DNA of 64,000 nt from Rhodobacter xanthinilyticus (GTDB taxonomy: Bacteria > Pseudomonadota > Alphaproteobacteria > Rhodobacterales > Rhodobacteraceae), in contig NZ_CP017781.1 in assembly GCF_001856665.1 (NCBI RefSeq), positions 1,521,501 through 1,585,500 of the forward strand, written 5' to 3'. Below are positions 9,095 through 17,640 of this stretch, in pieces (the first letter of the stretch is position 1; each line of letters starts with the position of its first letter). Position numbers and translations under genes: made by a program. The notes under the pieces were generated by a model. The model saw nothing but the letters and a program-made list of their open reading frames with translations. It searched no databases and was not told where the DNA came from.

Positions 9095-10295
9095 ATGACC
9101 ATTCTCGCCATCGACCAGGGCACGACCTCGGCGCGCGCCATCCTCTTCGACGCCGCCCTGCGCCCGATCGAGCAGGCGGGGCAGGAGTTCCCCCAGATCT
9201 TCCCGCGCCCGGGCTGGGTCGAGCATGACCCGGCCGAGATCTGGGCCTCGGTCGCGGCCTCGGTGCAGGGCGTGCTCGCCCGCGCGGGCAAGACCGCCGC
9301 CGAGATCACCGCGATCGGCATCACCAACCAGCGCGAGACCACCGTGATCTGGGAGCGCGCGACGGGTCGGCCGATCCATAACGCGCTCGTCTGGCAAGAC
9401 CGCCGCACCGCCGAGACCTGCGCGCGCCTCACCGCCGAGGGCCATGAGGGCCGCGTGCGCGCGCACCGGGCTCGTGCTCGCCCCCTATTTCTCCGCCACG
9501 AAAATCGCCTGGATCCTCGATCATGTGCCGGGCGCGCGGGCGCGTGCCGAGGCGGGCGATCTGGCGTTTGGCACGGTTGACAGCTGGCTGATCTGGCATC
9601 TCACCGGCGGGCGCGTGCATGCGACCGATGCCACCACCGTCGCGCTTCAGCTCGGCGGAACAAGGACTTACACGATCGAGGGCGCGATCTTCATCGCCGG
9701 CGCGGTGATGCAATGGCTGCGCGACGGGCTCAAGGTGATCGAGGCCGCGCCGCAGGTGCAGGCGCTCGCCGAAGCCGCCGATCCGGGGGCGGGGGTGGTC
9801 TTCGTGCCCGCCTTCACCGGGCTGGGCGCGCCCTATTGGGCGCCCGAATGCCGCGGCGCGATCCTGGGGCTGAGCCGCGGCGCGGGCCGCGCCGAGATCG
9901 CGCGGGCGGCGCTCGAAAGCGTCGGCCAGCAGACCGCGGATCTCTGGGAGGCGATGCGCGCCGATTGGGCCGAGGGCGCGCGCGGCGCGGGGGGCGCGGG
10001 CGCGCAGGTGCGGCTGCGCGTCGATGGCGGCATGGCGGCCTCGGATTGGACGATGCAGGCGCTCGCCGATCTTCTGGGCGCCGAGGTTGACCGGCCCGCC
10101 GTGCTCGAGACCACCGCGCTCGGCGCGGCCTGGCTCGCGGCGCGGGGCGCGCGCATCGGCCCGAGCCGGGCCGAATTTTCCGCCGCCTGGGCGCTTGAGC
10201 GCCGCTTTAGCCCCGCGATGGCAGCGCCTGCGCGCGCGGCGGCACGCGCGCGATGGGCGCGCGCGGTGCAGGCGGTGCTCGACTTCGGCGGCTGA
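9095..10295 (+). pseudogene. glpK: Glycerol kinase, frameshifted and missing its central segment
   Basis: The N-terminal part is a clear glycerol kinase ([26 protein letters not shown]). At about 9450-9457, in a GC dinucleotide run, the frame breaks; two bases appear to be missing. The other frame resumes with [21 protein letters not shown]. At about 9632-9640 the protein then jumps from HATDAT directly to [16 protein letters not shown]. About 90 residues are absent, including the GDQQAA segment with the catalytic Asp and the TYGTGCF phosphate-binding segment. The C-terminal half continues normally ([30 protein letters not shown]). Enzyme activity is not expected even if the frameshift were a read error. 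Confidence 0.9.
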
Positions 10296-10417: not shown

Positions 10418-11131
10418 ATGCGAAGACTTCGGACAATTGCCCTGATCGGCGGGCGGCTCGTTCCGGCCGCGCTGGTGATCGGCGCGCTGGCGCTTTGGCC
10501 ACGGATCGGCGCGGGCGGGGCGGCGGCGGGGCTTGGCCTTGCGGCGCTCCTCTATGGGCTGAGCGCGCGCGGGCGCGCCGGGCTCGAGGCGCGCGCGGGC
10601 TGGGCGGGAAGCTACCGTTACGGCGCGGTTTCGGCGGTGATCTTGCCCGATTGGATGGGGTTTCTCTGGGGCGGCGTGCTGATCGCGCTGCCGTTCTGGG
10701 CGGGGCGCGCGGGCGCGGGGCTGCACCCCTCGGCCGTGCTCACCTGGCCCGTGGGCGGCGCGTTTCTGGCGCTGAGCATGATCGCGGCGCGCCGCGCGGG
10801 GGTGAGTTTGCGCCTCACGCCGGAGGGGCTCGAGAGCCTCACGCTGCTCGGCGGCTGGCGGATCGATTTTGACGAGATCGCCGAGATCCGGCCCTGGCGG
10901 CGCGATCTGCCGGGCTGGGTGCGCGCGCTCGGGGCGGCCGCGGGCGCGCTCGGCAACCCGACGGCGGCGGGCGCGGTGATGCTCGCGCGGCCCTCCTCGG
11001 GGCTCGAGATCGGGCTGAAATCCGGCGCGCGGCGGGTGATCCCGGGGGATGCTTTCGAGGCGGCGACGGGGGCGATCTTGCGCGCGGCGGCGGCGCGGGG
11101 GGTGGCGCTCGCGCCCGGGCTTGCGCCCTGA
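10418..11131 (+). CDS. Membrane protein of unknown function
   Basis: The product has 237 residues and I do not recognise a named family. The first 125 residues hold about four hydrophobic segments (near 8-28, 33-50, 72-95 and 105-124). The rest (about 128-225) looks like a small soluble beta-rich domain, with SLRLTPEGLESLTLLGGWRIDFDEI resembling bacterial PH-like modules. A strong GGAGGAGGGGG ribosome site precedes the ATG. It is the first of five closely spaced genes for exported or membrane proteins that lead up to hupT. Confidence 0.7.
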   Translation: MRRLRTIALIGGRLVPAALVIGALALWPRIGAGGAAAGLGLAALLYGLSARGRAGLEARAGWAGSYRYGAVSAVILPDWMGFLWGGVLIALPFWAGRAGAGLHPSAVLTWPVGGAFLALSMIAARRAGVSLRLTPEGLESLTLLGGWRIDFDEIAEIRPWRRDLPGWVRALGAAAGALGNPTAAGAVMLARPSSGLEIGLKSGARRVIPGDAFEAATGAILRAAAARGVALAPGLAP

Positions 11132-11144
11132 GATGGAGGGGAAG

Positions 11145-12029
11145 ATGCGTGTTATCTTGCGGAATTTATTTGCAATTCTGATCGCGGCTCTGGCGCTTGG
11201 TGCGCCCGCGCGGGCCGAGGAGTGGCGCAGCTACAGCTTGGGCGCCTACGGCTTTGGCGCCCCGGCCGACTGGGCCGTGACCGCGCGGCGCGCCGATGAG
11301 ATCGACCTGGCGAGCCCCGACGGGCGCTATCAGCTCTGGGCGCGGCTCTGGCTGCCTGATGAGCCGCTTCTGGGCTATGACGATATCGTCGCGCATGGGC
11401 CGCTGACCATCGCGGGGCAGGGCGCGCTTTTCATCCATACCGAGGGGCCCACCGAGCGCTTTCTCCAATATGCGTTCGATCGCAAGGATGCCAAGGGGCG
11501 GCAGTTTCTCTTCCAGCTGATCGGGCAGGGCGCGCCGCTCGCCGAACATCAGGCGCTCTTCCAGCGGCTCGGCGCCGAACTCGTGGTGGATGGCGTGCGC
11601 GCCGTGCCCGCGGCGGCCACGCCCGCGCCCGCCGCCGACCCCTGGGCCGCCGAAGACGCCCAGCATACCGAGCTCGACGACTGGATCGCGATCGCCAACA
11701 TGCGCTACGGCGCGGGCGATTGTCAGCCGCTCGATCTGGCGAGCTGGAGCCACCCGACCCGCGCCGTGATGGAGGCGCGCGGCATCGCGATCCGCTTCGT
11801 CGCGCTCTGCCGCGGCCGCACCTTCCCGGTCTTCGGGGTCGAGCTGCCCTATGACGCCCATCTCGCGGGCAACGACAGCTTCTTCCTGCCCTTCTACGAC
11901 GCGATGTTCCGCGCCAATGGCAAATGGGATTTCGCGCTCTTCTCCACCCCCGATTGGCTTTTCATCGACGTGCGCGGGCGCGGCCGCCCGAGCCTCGAGA
12001 TCGAGCTTTACGACGTCCCCGGCGATTGA
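11145..12029 (+). CDS. Exported protein of unknown function
   Basis: The product has 294 residues. A signal peptide is clear (MRVILRNLFAILIAALALGA, cleavage after APARA). The mature N-terminal part (EEWRSYSLGAYGFGAPADW...) reads like small beta-sheet domains that sense or bind in the periplasm, similar in feel to PsbP/DcrB-like folds; this is an impression, not a match. The C-terminal half contains two cysteines (about residues 192 and 226) and several aromatic-rich strands. The start was chosen for its GGAGGGG ribosome site and signal peptide. It lies 13 bases after the previous gene. Confidence 0.7.
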   Translation: MRVILRNLFAILIAALALGAPARAEEWRSYSLGAYGFGAPADWAVTARRADEIDLASPDGRYQLWARLWLPDEPLLGYDDIVAHGPLTIAGQGALFIHTEGPTERFLQYAFDRKDAKGRQFLFQLIGQGAPLAEHQALFQRLGAELVVDGVRAVPAAATPAPAADPWAAEDAQHTELDDWIAIANMRYGAGDCQPLDLASWSHPTRAVMEARGIAIRFVALCRGRTFPVFGVELPYDAHLAGNDSFFLPFYDAMFRANGKWDFALFSTPDWLFIDVRGRGRPSLEIELYDVPGD

Positions 12030-12041
12030 GGAGGCCCCCCG

Positions 12042-15000
12042 ATGCGTGCCCTGCTGACCCGTCTCGCGCTTGGCGCCCTGCTCTGGCTTGCGGCACTCGG
12101 GGCCGCGCAGGCCGCCGAAGACCCCGAGGAAAAGGTCTACAAACAGGCCTATTCCGAGGTGAAATCAGCCTTCGACGACACGCGCGCCAAATTCGACGCC
12201 GTTTATGGCCCGATCAAGGAGGCCCAAGCCGCGATCACCGAATGGCGCGGCGCGGTGCGGCGGGCGCAATCGAAGGCGGCGATCGAGAAGATCGAGGGCA
12301 TGCTGGCCAGCGGAACGACGCTCGCGCGCGACGAAATGGTCCGCCAGATGCTCGGCGAGGACGCCCTCAAGGCCTTGCAAAAGCTCGACAAAATCACGGG
12401 CAAGACGATCGGCCTGCCGGAGCCCAAGCGGATGCTCGACCTGATCCGCGACCCCGATGATTTCGCCAAGCGCTACGGCTATATGTACAACCTCTCGATC
12501 TATGAGCGCGCCTTCCGCGACAGCTCCGCCGCCAAGGCGCTCGCCCAGGCCGAGGCGATTTTCGAGAAAGGCGGGAAATATCTCGACAAGGCCGGCCAGC
12601 TCGTTGATTTCGTGGCGCTTTTTGACCCGAACAACAATGCCGCCGACGGCCCCGTGGGGCGGCTCAAATCGCTCTCGGCGGTGCTCACCTATATGCAGGA
12701 CATCACCGGCCCGATCCCCGGGCTCGACGACCTCGTGGGCTTTTACGCCGAGGCCGCGACCGCCTTTGCCGGCGCGCTCGACCGGCTCGACATGAAGCTC
12801 AAGGAGGCCCGCGCGGGGTCGCTTTGCGGCCAGCTCGGCCAGTTGCAGGCCGAACTCGCCGCCCTCGATCAGCATATCAAGGGCGGCTCCTGCGCGCTCT
12901 ATCTCACCGACTATGGCGCCGAGGCGACCCTCAAGCCGTTGAAAGTGTGGGAACATTTCGAATATGGCGAAACCTTCTACTGGCGGCCCGCAGATGGCGC
13001 CTCGGCCTATCTCTCCCGCGCCGATGCGGCCACGCTTCTGGGTGCCTTCCGCGCGCTGCGCGCCTCGGAGGAGCCGCAAAACGCCGCCCGCGCCACGCCC
13101 GACACGTTCCTCTCGCGCGCCATGGTCACCACCCGCGCCGGCCGGATCATCGCCGAGCGCGAGTGCCGCGCGGGCGCCGATCTGATCGCCTCCGACCGCT
13201 TCCGCGCGACGCTTCTGGCGCTCGGCGTGATCGATTATGGCGATGCGATCGCGGCGCCGAGCGGCACCCGGCTGCGCCCCGGCCGCACCCCCGCGGCCGA
13301 GCTTCTGGGCCTGTGTCTCTTCGACCCCTCCGCGCGCAACCTCATCTTCGATCTCGTCGCGCGCTACCGCGATATCGCGCCGATCCGCCTCGCGCTCGTC
13401 TCGGCCGATTGGCGCCGCCCCGAGGCCCCGCGCGCCCCGGTGATCACCGTGAACGGCACGCGCCTTGTCGATGGCAAGGCCGGCACCCGGTTCGACCCGC
13501 CCGCCGCGCGGATCTTTGGCGCGCGCACGCTGGCCGATCTCGGCGCGCCGGTGGTGGTCGAGATCCGCGCCAAGGGGTTCTTGCCGAAAACCGTCGAATT
13601 GCCGCTCAGCCCCGCGCAAAATTACGCCAAGATCGGCCTGACGCCCGAGCCCGAGGAGGAGGACGCGGCCGAGAAAGCCAAGGCCGAGGCCGAGGCCCGC
13701 GCGGCGGCCGCCGAACAGGCGCTCAAGGAGGCCCGCGCCGCCGAGGCCCAGGCCCGCGAGGAGGCCAAGGCCCGCGAAGAGGCCGCGCGCGTGCAAGAGG
13801 CCCGCGCCGAAGAGCTCGCCCAGGCCGCCGCCGAAGCCGCGGCGCAAGCCGCCGCCGAGGCCGCCAAGACCGGCAAGGCCCCGACCCCGGTCGCCCCGAC
13901 CCCGATCCCGCCCGCCCCCGACCCGGTCTGGGTCGCGACCGGCCAGCCCGCGCCCACCGACGCGGCGCCGTCAACGACCGGCGAGGCCACAAGCTCGGCC
14001 GGGCAGGGCGCCGAGACCCCCGAGCCCGAGACCGCCCCCGAGCCCGAGATCCCGCAAACCCTCCCCCCCGACCCGCAGGTCGCGATCGGCACCGGCCCGG
14101 GCGACAGCGCGCCGCTCGGCACCGCGCCGCAGCCGGGCGCGGAGGAGCAACCCGCCCCCGAAAGCACCGCCCCGCCCCCCGATAGCGAGGCCGCCGCCAT
14201 CGCCGCCGTCGGCGAGGCCGCGCCGGGGCTCGGCACCCAGGTGCCGCTCGCGGGCCTGCCCGGTCAGGTCATGCTCGGCGATCAGGTCGTGGTCTCCGTC
14301 AACTGGACCGAGCCCGCGCCGACGGCTGCGAGCCCCGGCACCTGTGCCCCGGGCACCCCCTTCACCGAATGCGAGGTCGAGATCGGCAACACCGCCGCGA
14401 GCGTCACCGTCCACGCCGCCGACGACACCGAAGACCTCGTCGATCCCGGCCCCGCGCCCGCGGCGCTGACCTTCATCTGGCAAGGCTCCGAGGGCGTGCG
14501 CTTCGACCCGCCGAGCTCGAGCCTGCCGCAAACCACCGTCCGCTTCGAGCGCCCGGGCGAGGCGAAGATCTGGGCGCAGATCCTGCGCGAGGGCACTACC
14601 ATCGCCGAGGGCAGCCAGCAGATCGTGACCGTGGGCCTGCCCTCGCTCGCGCTCGCCTTCGACCCGCCCGGCGGCGCCAAACCCGGCGCCGAGATCAGCG
14701 CGCGGATCGTCACCACCCCGCCGCTCGCCGAGGATCTCTTCACCGTCACCTGGGCCGAGCCGCCGAGCTCGAACCGGCTCGAGCTCGACGGGCCGGGCGC
14801 CACGATCCGCTTCACCGGCGCCGCCGAGGAGGTGATCGCGCTCGAGGCGCGCCTCACGACGCCGTTCTGGGGCGATGAGATCGGCACGATCAAGGGCTCC
14901 TACAGTCTCGCGGGCGGCGCGATCGAGGTCACCGCCGAGGCCAAGGGCCCCGCGCCGCAGGTCTGGGACCCGGTCGCGGGCGGGCTCGTCGCGGCGCCCG

Positions 15001-16565
15001 CGGGCAGCTGGGTCACCGGCCAGGAGATCACCCTCACCGCCACCTTCCCCGAGAGCCCCGCCAAGGCGCCGAACTGGGATTGGACGGTCAACCCGGGCAC
15101 GACCCTCTCGAACCCGATCTCGCAAACGCCGACCGTGAGCCGCGCCGAACCGGGCGCGATCGAGGCCGAGGTGGTGGCCCATGACGCCGACGGGCGCGAG
15201 CTTGGCCGCGGGGCGATCACGCTCTCGGTCGCGCCGCAGATCGCCGCGATGGTGGCGCCCGATGCGGGGGGCGAGGTGCCGATCCTGAGCCTGCCCGAGA
15301 CCAAGGCGGGCCCGGAGGCGGCGGCGAAATCCTCCGCGCCCGCGCCCGAAGCGGCGCCGGCTGCGGCGGCCTGCGCGCCCGGCCAGCCCGCCGCCGCGAC
15401 GGCCGCAAGCCTTTGGAAAAAGGGGCTTTCCGCGGTTTCGGCGGGGCAGGGCGCGGAGGGGCTCGCGGCCCTTGAGGCCTCGCTCGATCTGTGCCCCGAT
15501 GCGACCCGCGCGGCGCAGGTCGCGGCGCTGAAATCGCATCTGAGCGCCACGGCGGCGCCGAATGCCGCGCCGGGCACCGCGCCGGGCACCGCGTCGGGCA
15601 CCGCGTCGGGCGCCACCGCAGGCGCGGCCTCGGGCGCGGCGGGCGCCGCCTGTGCGCCCGGCGGCGCCGATTATGCCCGCGCGGCCGAGCATTGGCGCGC
15701 GGGGCTCGCCGCGGTGAGCGGCGGCGCGCCCGAGGCGGGGCTGGCTGAGCTCGATGCGGCGCTGGCACTTTGCCCCGACCCGACCCGCGCGGCGCAACTG
15801 GCCGCGCTCAAGACCCGTCTCGCGGCCCCCGCGCCCGCGACCGCGCCCGAGACCGCGCCCACCCGCGCGCCCTCCGCGCTCGAGGCCGCCGCCGCCGCCG
15901 CGCAGGCCGCCTGCGCCCCCGGCGGCGCGCGCCAAGAGGCCGCGCAAGCCGCGCTTGGCCGGGCCAGCCGCGCGCTCGATGACAGCGATCTGGCCACCGC
16001 CCTCGGCGCGCTCGAAGAGGCGCAAAGCCTCTGCCCGGATGGCGAAAAAGCCTCTCTGATCAAGGAGCTGCAAAGCGTGATCACAGAGGTCGAGGAAAGC
16101 CGCCCCGCCCCCGAGGAGGGCGCCGCGCCCGAAACCGCGAGCCCGGGCGTGCTCTTCCCCGGCGGCGCCGCGCCCACGCCCGTGCCTGTGCCCGCGCCCG
16201 TGCCGACGCCGGCCCCCACCCCCACCCCGGCCCCGGCCGCGGGCGTCGAGGGCGGCTATTCCGGCACGATCACCGGCGCGCCCGGCGCGATGATCTCGCT
16301 CACGATCTCGGGCGGGCGGGTCGAGGGCTGGGTCCGCGGCAGCTTCGAGGGCGACAAGATCTCGCTCGCCTTCTCCGGCCCCGCGCCGGGCGGCGCCTTC
16401 GATGTGCCGATCACCGGCAAGATCACCGACAGCAGCTACCAGATGGATTGGACGATCGGCGGGCGGATCACGGGCGAGGCCCGGGGCGACCGGGTGAGCG
16501 GCCGCTGGACCGTGGGCAGCGATAGCGAGAGCCGCTCCGGCAGCTACCAGGCCAACCGCGAATAG
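12042..16565 (+). CDS. Large exported multidomain protein with Cys-bracketed TPR-like repeats
   Basis: The product has 1507 residues. A signal peptide ends at about 24 (AQAAED). Residues 25-310 are mainly helical. An Ala/Glu-rich coiled coil covers about 540-610, then a Pro-rich linker runs to about 720. Residues 740-1075 form several Ig/PKD-like beta domains. Three repeats of about 60 residues follow, starting near 1110, 1204 and 1291. Each begins CAPG, has two TPR-like helices and carries a second cysteine in LCPD. A Pro/Ala linker leads to a C-terminal beta domain (about 1400-1507) rich in Gly and Ser. It is periplasmic or surface exposed, and I cannot assign a function. It ends 6 bases before the next exported-protein gene. 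Confidence 0.75.
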   Translation: MRALLTRLALGALLWLAALGAAQAAEDPEEKVYKQAYSEVKSAFDDTRAKFDAVYGPIKEAQAAITEWRGAVRRAQSKAAIEKIEGMLASGTTLARDEMVRQMLGEDALKALQKLDKITGKTIGLPEPKRMLDLIRDPDDFAKRYGYMYNLSIYERAFRDSSAAKALAQAEAIFEKGGKYLDKAGQLVDFVALFDPNNNAADGPVGRLKSLSAVLTYMQDITGPIPGLDDLVGFYAEAATAFAGALDRLDMKLKEARAGSLCGQLGQLQAELAALDQHIKGGSCALYLTDYGAEATLKPLKVWEHFEYGETFYWRPADGASAYLSRADAATLLGAFRALRASEEPQNAARATPDTFLSRAMVTTRAGRIIAERECRAGADLIASDRFRATLLALGVIDYGDAIAAPSGTRLRPGRTPAAELLGLCLFDPSARNLIFDLVARYRDIAPIRLALVSADWRRPEAPRAPVITVNGTRLVDGKAGTRFDPPAARIFGARTLADLGAPVVVEIRAKGFLPKTVELPLSPAQNYAKIGLTPEPEEEDAAEKAKAEAEARAAAAEQALKEARAAEAQAREEAKAREEAARVQEARAEELAQAAAEAAAQAAAEAAKTGKAPTPVAPTPIPPAPDPVWVATGQPAPTDAAPSTTGEATSSAGQGAETPEPETAPEPEIPQTLPPDPQVAIGTGPGDSAPLGTAPQPGAEEQPAPESTAPPPDSEAAAIAAVGEAAPGLGTQVPLAGLPGQVMLGDQVVVSVNWTEPAPTAASPGTCAPGTPFTECEVEIGNTAASVTVHAADDTEDLVDPGPAPAALTFIWQGSEGVRFDPPSSSLPQTTVRFERPGEAKIWAQILREGTTIAEGSQQIVTVGLPSLALAFDPPGGAKPGAEISARIVTTPPLAEDLFTVTWAEPPSSNRLELDGPGATIRFTGAAEEVIALEARLTTPFWGDEIGTIKGSYSLAGGAIEVTAEAKGPAPQVWDPVAGGLVAAPAGSWVTGQEITLTATFPESPAKAPNWDWTVNPGTTLSNPISQTPTVSRAEPGAIEAEVVAHDADGRELGRGAITLSVAPQIAAMVAPDAGGEVPILSLPETKAGPEAAAKSSAPAPEAAPAAAACAPGQPAAATAASLWKKGLSAVSAGQGAEGLAALEASLDLCPDATRAAQVAALKSHLSATAAPNAAPGTAPGTASGTASGATAGAASGAAGAACAPGGADYARAAEHWRAGLAAVSGGAPEAGLAELDAALALCPDPTRAAQLAALKTRLAAPAPATAPETAPTRAPSALEAAAAAAQAACAPGGARQEAAQAALGRASRALDDSDLATALGALEEAQSLCPDGEKASLIKELQSVITEVEESRPAPEEGAAPETASPGVLFPGGAAPTPVPVPAPVPTPAPTPTPAPAAGVEGGYSGTITGAPGAMISLTISGGRVEGWVRGSFEGDKISLAFSGPAPGGAFDVPITGKITDSSYQMDWTIGGRITGEARGDRVSGRWTVGSDSESRSGSYQANRE
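15567..15614 (+). repeat. 12-bp tandem repeat inside the large exported protein gene
   Basis: Four units of 12 bases follow each other: GCGCCGGGCACC twice, GCGTCGGGCACC once, and GCGTCGGGCGCC. They encode an Ala/Gly/Thr/Ser/Pro linker between the first and second TPR-like repeats. The array may vary in copy number between strains without changing the frame. Confidence 0.8.
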
Positions 16566-16571
16566 GGGGAT

Positions 16572-17231
16572 ATGATGCGATATAAATCAATCATTTGCGC
16601 GGCGATCTTGATGTGCCTTGCGGGGCCCGGCGCGGCGCTGGATCTCGGCCGGTCGGGCATCGCGCTCAACCCGCCCGCGCGCGGCTGGAAGCTCGAGGAG
16701 CACCGCGACGCGGCGATCGCGGTCTGGCATCTGCGCGCCGAGAGCTGGGATCCGCCGCCGGCCTCGGGGCTGATCGCGGTGACGGTCTCGATGCTCGACG
16801 GCGACCCTTGGCCCGACCCGGGCGCGCTGCGCGATGCGGCGGGGCGGGCGATGCGGGCGGGGCTGATCCGCGATCTGGCGGCCGATGCGCCCTTCGATCT
16901 CGCCGCCGGGCGGTTCCAGATCGCGGGCGAGGATTTCACCGGCGCGATCGGCCTTGGCGATGCGCCCGCGCGCCCCGCGATGGCGCGGGTTCTGGCGATC
17001 CGCACCGGCGACGGGGCGCTCCTGATCTCGGCCTTTTCGATCAAGGGCCCGGGCGAGGGGGCCTTTGACGGGCTCTTCGGGCCGGGGGGGATCCTGACCG
17101 CGATGGGCCCGGGCGCCGAGGCGCTCAACGGCGCCGCCGCCGCCCCCGCCACCGCCCCGCCCGCCGCAGACCCCGCGCTCGAAGAGCTCCTGCAGCAGAT
17201 GCAGGGCGGATTTTCCACGGGAGACCAATGA
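16572..17231 (+). CDS. Exported protein of unknown function
   Basis: The product has 219 residues with a signal peptide (about 1-22, MMRYKSIICAAILMCLAGPG). The mature part has alternating hydrophobic strands and a short Ala/Pro-rich tail that ends in LEELLQQMQGGF. Its layout (beta domain after the signal, then a low-complexity tail) recalls the exported protein at 11145-12029, but I see no clear common motif. It starts 6 bases after the 1507-residue protein and ends one base before the SH3-domain gene, so the three are surely co-expressed. Confidence 0.7.
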   Translation: MMRYKSIICAAILMCLAGPGAALDLGRSGIALNPPARGWKLEEHRDAAIAVWHLRAESWDPPPASGLIAVTVSMLDGDPWPDPGALRDAAGRAMRAGLIRDLAADAPFDLAAGRFQIAGEDFTGAIGLGDAPARPAMARVLAIRTGDGALLISAFSIKGPGEGAFDGLFGPGGILTAMGPGAEALNGAAAAPATAPPAADPALEELLQQMQGGFSTGDQ

Positions 17232-17232
17232 C

Positions 17233-17640
17233 ATGCGTGCATTTCTTCTGGCCGCCTGCCTGCTCGCCGCGCTGCCCGCCGGCGCCGAAGTGGTGGGTAA
17301 CCTCAGCCCCACCGGCGACAATTACCTGACGCTGCGCGCGGGCCCCAGCACCAAGGCCGAGGCGCTCAGCCGGATGGGCCCGGGCACCCGCCTTGTCGTC
17401 TTCGAGACGCAGGGCGATTGGCGCTATGTCGCGACCGAGGATGGCCGCGAGGGCTGGGCCTTTGGCAAATATATCCTGCCCGACCCGGTCGGCGCGGTGC
17501 TCGCGCCCCTTGGCGCGGTCGCGCCCGAGGCGGCGGGCGTGCTCGCGCCCGCGGCGGGGCCGGCGGTCTCCTATGACCCGTTCGACTGGGTCGAGGGCCA
17601 TATGGCGCAGTTCCACGACCCGCTGAAATACTACCCATGA
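17233..17640 (+). CDS. Exported bacterial SH3-domain protein
   Basis: The product has 135 residues with a signal peptide (MRAFLLAACLLAALPAGA). Residues 22-80 form a bacterial SH3 domain of the SH3_3 type: LTLRAGPSTKAEALSRMGPG, followed by GDWRYVATEDGREGWAFGKYI. Such domains usually bind cell-wall or protein ligands in the periplasm. The C-terminal 50 residues are Ala/Pro-rich with an aromatic end. It is the last gene of the unknown exported-protein cluster. Its stop codon overlaps an in-frame ATG that could extend HupT. Confidence 0.82.
   Translation: MRAFLLAACLLAALPAGAEVVGNLSPTGDNYLTLRAGPSTKAEALSRMGPGTRLVVFETQGDWRYVATEDGREGWAFGKYILPDPVGAVLAPLGAVAPEAAGVLAPAAGPAVSYDPFDWVEGHMAQFHDPLKYYP

Follow-up and report, generated by a model that had tools for sequence, protein, structure and literature searches.

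A conserved gene unit for predicted exported proteins next to hupT in Rhodobacter xanthinilyticus: a recurring core with exchangeable partners

Among the described proteins closest to the products of the locus considered here are two groups. One comprises the Mog1p/PsbP-like periplasmic proteins, such as DcrB, LpqN and PA1624; LpqN is presumably a member of the Mog1p/PsbP-like group, and we take the domain of TIGR03931 (type VII secretion system (T7SS)-associated Rv3446c domain) to be LpqN/PsbP-like. The other comprises the bacterial SH3_3 proteins (PF08239; TIGR04211). In PMC7716261, Mog1p/PsbP-family proteins are described as possibly associated with membrane-anchored complexes, and PA1624 as a two-domain periplasmic protein of unknown function. 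The locus in question is a cluster of five genes, A to E, at positions 10418-17640 of a 64,000-nucleotide stretch of the Rhodobacter xanthinilyticus genome (contig NZ_CP017781.1; the whole stretch is hereafter called the window), directly upstream of the hydrogen sensor gene hupT. Comparison with related genomes indicates that the cluster is one version of a conserved module, in which a core of gene A and the domain that characterizes gene B is combined with exchangeable exported partners. The cluster consists of the following genes:

10418-11131, + strand: gene A, 237 residues, membrane protein
11145-12029, + strand: gene B, 294 residues, predicted exported protein with an N-domain and a C-domain
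12042-16565, + strand: gene C, 1507 residues, predicted exported mosaic protein
16572-17231, + strand: gene D, 219 residues, predicted exported protein without a family
17233-17640, + strand: gene E, 135 residues, predicted exported protein with an SH3_3 domain and a conserved tail

These open reading frames run in one direction and, with the start of gene B placed at 11145, are separated by 13, 12, 6 and 1 bases, in agreement with the spacing of 1 to 14 bases given in a preliminary description of this DNA. Third-position guanine-plus-cytosine content is 0.84-0.90 in each gene, and the codon-position composition is as in real genes, so all five are considered real. Protein A has four hydrophobic segments (residues 7-25, 30-48, 71-89 and 106-124), which bears out its earlier designation as a membrane protein, followed by a soluble C-terminal part that carries the stretch PWRRDLPxWxRAL...AGAxxLAR, conserved in an alignment of relatives. 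Proteins B, C, D and E each begin with a hydrophobic segment ending at a plausible signal-peptidase site; this reading by eye is consistent with the earlier statement that all but the first gene encode signal peptides. Likewise, the description of three exported proteins as lacking a recognised family stands for B, C and D at the cut-offs used, since A, B, C and D have no match above cut-off in Pfam or NCBIfam (searched to an E-value of 1) and none in PADLOC or PHROGs at E-values up to 0.01. Protein E, previously noted as an SH3-domain protein, is the sole member of the cluster with a known family, namely SH3_3 (PF08239; E-value 2.4e-11), so that the five genes do not resolve into unrelated known families. 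In sequence searches of the PDB, the module proteins matched only chains that look unrelated, and these weakly, with the lowest E-value, 0.0099, for the D profile against a DNA ligase; the five-gene cluster was not described among the literature matches listed, as judged from titles and abstract openings.

The same genes were found adjacent in another genome. Maritimibacter sp. HL-12, a member of the Rhodobacterales, carries homologues of B, C, D and E in the same order as in the window (locus L013):

10001-10888 of L013: homologue of B
10902-15728 of L013: homologue of C, 1608 residues
15741-16430 of L013: homologue of D
16427-16831 of L013: homologue of E

Identity between the two copies is 60% for B, 63% for D and 44% for E, and for C it is 69% over the N-terminal 516 residues and 58% over the whole protein. 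The ratio of nonsynonymous to synonymous substitution (dN/dS, NG86 method) between the two copies is 0.31 for B, 0.32 for residues 1-540 of C, 0.43 for the whole of C, 0.45 for D and 0.18 for the tail of E (47 codons); values of 0.18-0.45 indicate that these proteins are under purifying selection. The preliminary description had named, as an outcome that would speak against a system, that the genes are never found together elsewhere; the recurrence of B-C-D-E in Maritimibacter, together with the proximity of A to the B domain at most of the loci described below, shows that they are.

Protein B consists of two domains, the first of which defines the family:

11217-11594, + strand: N-domain of B, residues 25-150, with the motif SPDGxYxLWxxWxFPDEPLLGxDDIV (11-row alignment A9)
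11682-12020, + strand: C-domain of B, residues 180-292, with two cysteines (193 and 222)

The N-domain was detected at 11 loci: the window; L013, L014 (Pelagimonas varians) and L015 (a Phyllobacteriaceae metagenome-assembled genome), which are named records from a genome-contig collection scanned with B only; L017 and L018, from two genomes of the window's genus (G002 and G008); and L030-L034, from five further genomes of the family. At seven of the nine loci other than the window and L013 (L014, L015, L017, L018, L030, L031 and L034), the B domain opens a fused protein roughly 1000-1190 residues long; at L032 and L033 it is an internal part of a multi-domain protein termed M. The C-domain of B recurs at L014, L030 and L031 within the fused protein, with a weak match at L034 as well, so that the B protein of the window looks like a shortened version of this longer protein. 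The unit envisaged from the window alone is therefore conserved, as the preliminary description proposed, but it is more varied than the window reveals, B being usually part of a much longer protein.

A PsbP/LpqN-like fold is suspected for the N-domain of B. TIGR03931 is matched by five of the seven fused proteins, in their first or second domain and always under the model cut-off (E-values of 1.2e-5 at L031, 5.8e-5 at L018, 7.6e-4 at L034, 0.014 at L030 and 0.076 at L017), and the M protein of L032 gives an E-value of 0.39. Like the Mog1p/PsbP-like periplasmic proteins, B is predicted to be exported, and a small alpha/beta domain is suspected both for its N-domain and for the second domain of the fused proteins; the two-domain organization of B also recalls that reported for PA1624 in PMC7716261. 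However, the motif SPDGxY...FPDEPLLG marks a family of its own, and the B domain has neither a Pfam match above cut-off nor a significant PDB sequence match. Protein D, which by eye had also been suspected of being PsbP-like, has no profile match to B or M and was rejected as a second such protein.

Gene A accompanies the B domain at most of these loci. It adjoins the B-domain gene in the window and at L015, L017, L018, L030, L031 and L034, and is one gene away at L032, amounting to 8 of 11 loci. The five loci fetched by the B profile alone (L030-L034) include four in which the window A, used as query, detects a homologue (E-values 1.8e-24 to 1.9e-15). The two genes overlap or lie at most 16 bases apart in the window and at L015, L030, L031 and L034, and are divergent at L017 and L018; this neighbourhood persists where the identity of A is below 40%. 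When 41 genomes were queried with both proteins, A and B were each found in the window genome (G000), G002 and G008. B also gave a 60-residue match in G023 (E-value 9.3e-4), which falls within the span of a long ParC-like open reading frame and was discounted. In addition, the pairwise identities of A and of the B domain correlate over eight loci (Mantel r 0.60, p 0.003). A bacterial PH-domain membrane protein (bPH_2) had been suggested by eye for A from its membrane segments and small C-terminal domain, and this was rejected: no bPH_2 match was found at any A gene, at E-values up to 10, in the seven A-carrying genomes searched. A profile comparison carries no weight either way, its control pair having failed to match as well.

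The partners of this core vary among loci. Elsewhere, the core is accompanied by a Cys-motif protein (seven loci), the multi-domain M protein (five loci) or an H protein (two loci), and LamG-like repeats are suspected by eye in the fused B proteins (e.g., L018, 8487-11579). Given that A stands near the B domain at 8 of 11 loci and that C-D-E are replaced elsewhere, the module can be described as a core, made up of A and the B domain, whose exported partners are exchangeable. The two gene sets are tied by shared domains, because the C-domain of B is found within fused B proteins and residues 206-317 of the fused protein of L015 match residues 1374-1486 of the Maritimibacter C protein (50% identity, E-value 1.4e-29). 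Directly upstream of the module's H gene at L033 is a gene (13358-16471) whose 1037-residue product has RTX repeats and weakly matches a lipase domain.

The large partner in the window, protein C, is a mosaic in which four regions can be distinguished:

12117-13652, + strand: N-terminal region of C, residues 26-537, mostly helical in a low-confidence model
14055-15224, + strand: middle region of C, residues 672-1061, immunoglobulin (Ig)-like by eye, 57% identical to the Maritimibacter protein
15372-16034, + strand: three cysteine-bounded segments of C, with CAPG...LCPD pairs at residues 1111/1151, 1204/1244 and 1291/1331
16248-16559, + strand: C-terminal domain of C, residues 1403-1506, 49% identical to the Maritimibacter protein

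In each of the three spaced segments, the bounding cysteines are exactly 40 residues apart. The C-terminal domain is likely a small beta barrel, as judged by eye. Residues 987-1072 gave one non-significant match to contactin 2 (E-value 0.64), and the N-terminal region has no profile match to the H and Cys-motif proteins. Protein E combines a known domain with a conserved end:

17326-17475, + strand: SH3_3 domain of E, residues 32-81, PF08239
17572-17637, + strand: conserved tail of E, YDPFDWVEGHMAQFHDPLKYYP, 77% identical over 22 residues to the Maritimibacter protein

The SH3_3 domain scores 44.1 bits against a PF08239 cut-off of 27 and lies behind the predicted signal peptide, in which E resembles other bacterial SH3_3 proteins; a borderline second hydrophobic segment follows at residues 86-104. 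E differs from TIGR04211, which it matches over positions 7-65 of 198 only and with 33.8 bits against a cut-off of 65, and it has a conserved tail of its own. The Maritimibacter E protein has no evident SH3 domain, yet retains this tail as YDPFxWVExHxxxFHDPLKYYP, as would be expected of a docking tail.

Tentatively, and at slightly less than an even chance, these observations point to an accessory module of the cell envelope, in which a conserved core and its interchangeable exported partners would assemble as one complex. Given the SH3 domain of E, the long stalk-like C and the multi-pass A, the simplest picture is an envelope complex with one anchor in the inner membrane and another at the wall. 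Protein A would serve as the inner-membrane anchor, while B would contribute the putative PsbP/LpqN-like domain that marks the module, here joined to a second, two-cysteine domain. Protein C may extend through the periplasm or as far as the cell surface, with a helical head, a charged, proline-rich stalk, Ig-like domains, the three segments bounded by cysteines and a small barrel at the C-terminus. In protein E, the SH3 domain could fasten the assembly to peptidoglycan, and the conserved C-terminal tail could be the part that docks to C or D. Protein D would be a further exported partner, and the complex might recognise or bind something at the envelope. A broader reading, which we regard as possible but rather unlikely, is that the locus represents an undescribed class of modular envelope machine found mostly in Rhodobacterales. 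Its standing core would consist of A and of the B domain as a PsbP-like adaptor. Large exported partners of various kinds would be plugged into this core (here C-D-E, elsewhere proteins of the LamG-like repeat, Cys-motif, multi-domain M or H type), altering what the cell binds or senses outside, and mobile DNA would re-deal the core between genomes. Several families lacking a Pfam or NCBIfam match above cut-off co-occur here as a core with swapped partners, and if the core does assemble a complex, a common order of bacteria would prove to have a new envelope structure. Handles for finding and testing the module are provided by the A signature, the B motif and the tail of E.

Several observations weigh against an assembly of this kind. 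Gene A was not found in the stretches examined for L013, L014 and L033, and C and D were seen, in limited searches, only in the window and Maritimibacter (2 of 11 loci); C (one sequence) and D (two-row profile) each returned only their own genome among 295 genomes of the family. The trees of A and B have weak support and conflict at individual forks, and the correlation between their distances may partly derive from species kinship. The N-terminal region of C yields a poor structure model (mean predicted local distance difference test score, pLDDT, of 51.5), and D has no profile kinship to the other module proteins. As for the suspected fold of B, TIGR03931 is not matched by the fused proteins of L014 and L015, nor, even at an E-value of 10, by the B protein of the window; that of Maritimibacter likewise gave no match.

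The variation of the partner genes among loci, the occurrence of C and D at only 2 of 11 loci and the absence of A from 3 of the 11 stretches are also what would be expected if the five genes merely encoded separate exported proteins, co-transcribed in response to the same condition and sharing no complex. This is the strongest of the alternatives, though an unlikely one: the A-B neighbourhood survives below 40% identity of A, the partners share domains, and the tail of E is kept where no SH3 domain is visible.

An interbacterial competition system, with secreted toxins or effectors and membrane immunity and possibly served by type VI secretion, would fit the patchy distribution and the mosaic exported proteins. 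At L017, in the same genus as the window, a PAAR gene is located some 1.5 kb from the module, and beside the PAAR gene is a PoNe-immunity (PoNi) gene (both at 1238-2334 of a 23.7-kb contig). However, this is one relative locus, and association with the type VI sheath gene (PF05591) is not consistent, this family being found in two of eight genomes with the module and three of 18 without it. The type VI link raised by the PAAR and PoNi genes was rejected for the window genome, where PF05591 has no match. In addition, the N-termini of B-E appear to be of the Sec type by eye and no toxin family was matched, making a competition system improbable.

The module described above has a patchy spread. 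Among 295 genomes of the family, drawn at about one per genus, an earlier 6-row profile of B (A2) found the domain in six, own genome included; over 385 genomes of the class, few of them from the same family, the B profile and a 4-row A profile each found their own genome only. Mobile genes lie near some copies. At L013, a tyrosine integrase gene (PF00589; 8787-9692) stands on one side of the cluster and an 89-base, 83%-identical copy of its 3' end (about 17100-17190) on the other, so that the flanks look like those of an insertion at the integrase's own end. At L034 (26.6-kb contig), a DDE transposase gene followed by TrbL and secretion-ATPase conjugation genes occupies 11548-17000, upstream of gene A, and this copy may lie on a mobile element. 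Such a setting, together with the patchy spread, would suit a surface-exclusion or anti-phage envelope system carried on mobile DNA, which we nonetheless also consider improbable. None of nine proteins matched PADLOC at E-values up to 0.01; B, the N-terminal region of C and the fused protein of L018 had no match in plasmid records; and pattern-led scans for D or B found nothing in viral contigs. Near the window copy, neither a remnant of the L013 integrase nor a long direct repeat was found; comparison of the two flanks gave at best a 23-base inverted match of 91% identity, taken as chance in GC-rich DNA.

The preliminary description also placed the cluster, as an undescribed system, beside the hydrogen sensor genes and had it run into hupT without a clear terminator. 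The cluster directly adjoins hupT on the same strand, and the DNA that separates E from hupT showed no terminator-like site; a 121-base stretch there folds no better than shuffled sequences (z -0.14), and read-through is therefore possible but unproven. The conserved unit lacking known families stands, but a tie to hydrogen sensing is not supported. At an E-value cut-off of 1e-90, hupT is present in 15 of the 41 genomes, own included, and in 11 of the other 14 (G006, G013 and G014 being left out) about 6-8 kb of DNA upstream of hupT was searched; none contained a cluster gene at E-values up to 1e-10. Conversely, in the DNA examined at the 10 other module loci, the 20.9-kb L013 locus included, hupT, hupU and hupV have no match, so that no conserved linkage to hupTUV was found. 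In G008, A and B occur without a hupT match at that cut-off, and in G002 they and hupT are on separate contigs. Only when the hupT reading frame is started at its Met1 (17637) does it overlap E, by 4 bases. Similarity among the other genomes begins at or after residue 34 in nine of 14 and at residues 12-28 in five, through a stop codon in two of these, which makes Met34 (17736), 95 bases after E, the likelier start; annotation from 17637 would then create a false overlap with E. That the module serves the hydrogenase or hydrogen sensor through co-expression with hupT is thus very improbable despite their adjacency on one strand, a special tie to hydrogen sensing is not supported, and a false lead in that direction is removed.

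On the other side of the cluster, the upstream glycerol kinase gene (window 9095-10295, + strand) is broken into two frames with the middle of the protein missing, one piece covering positions 2-121 of FGGY_N and the other positions 121-175 of FGGY_N and 35-197 of FGGY_C.

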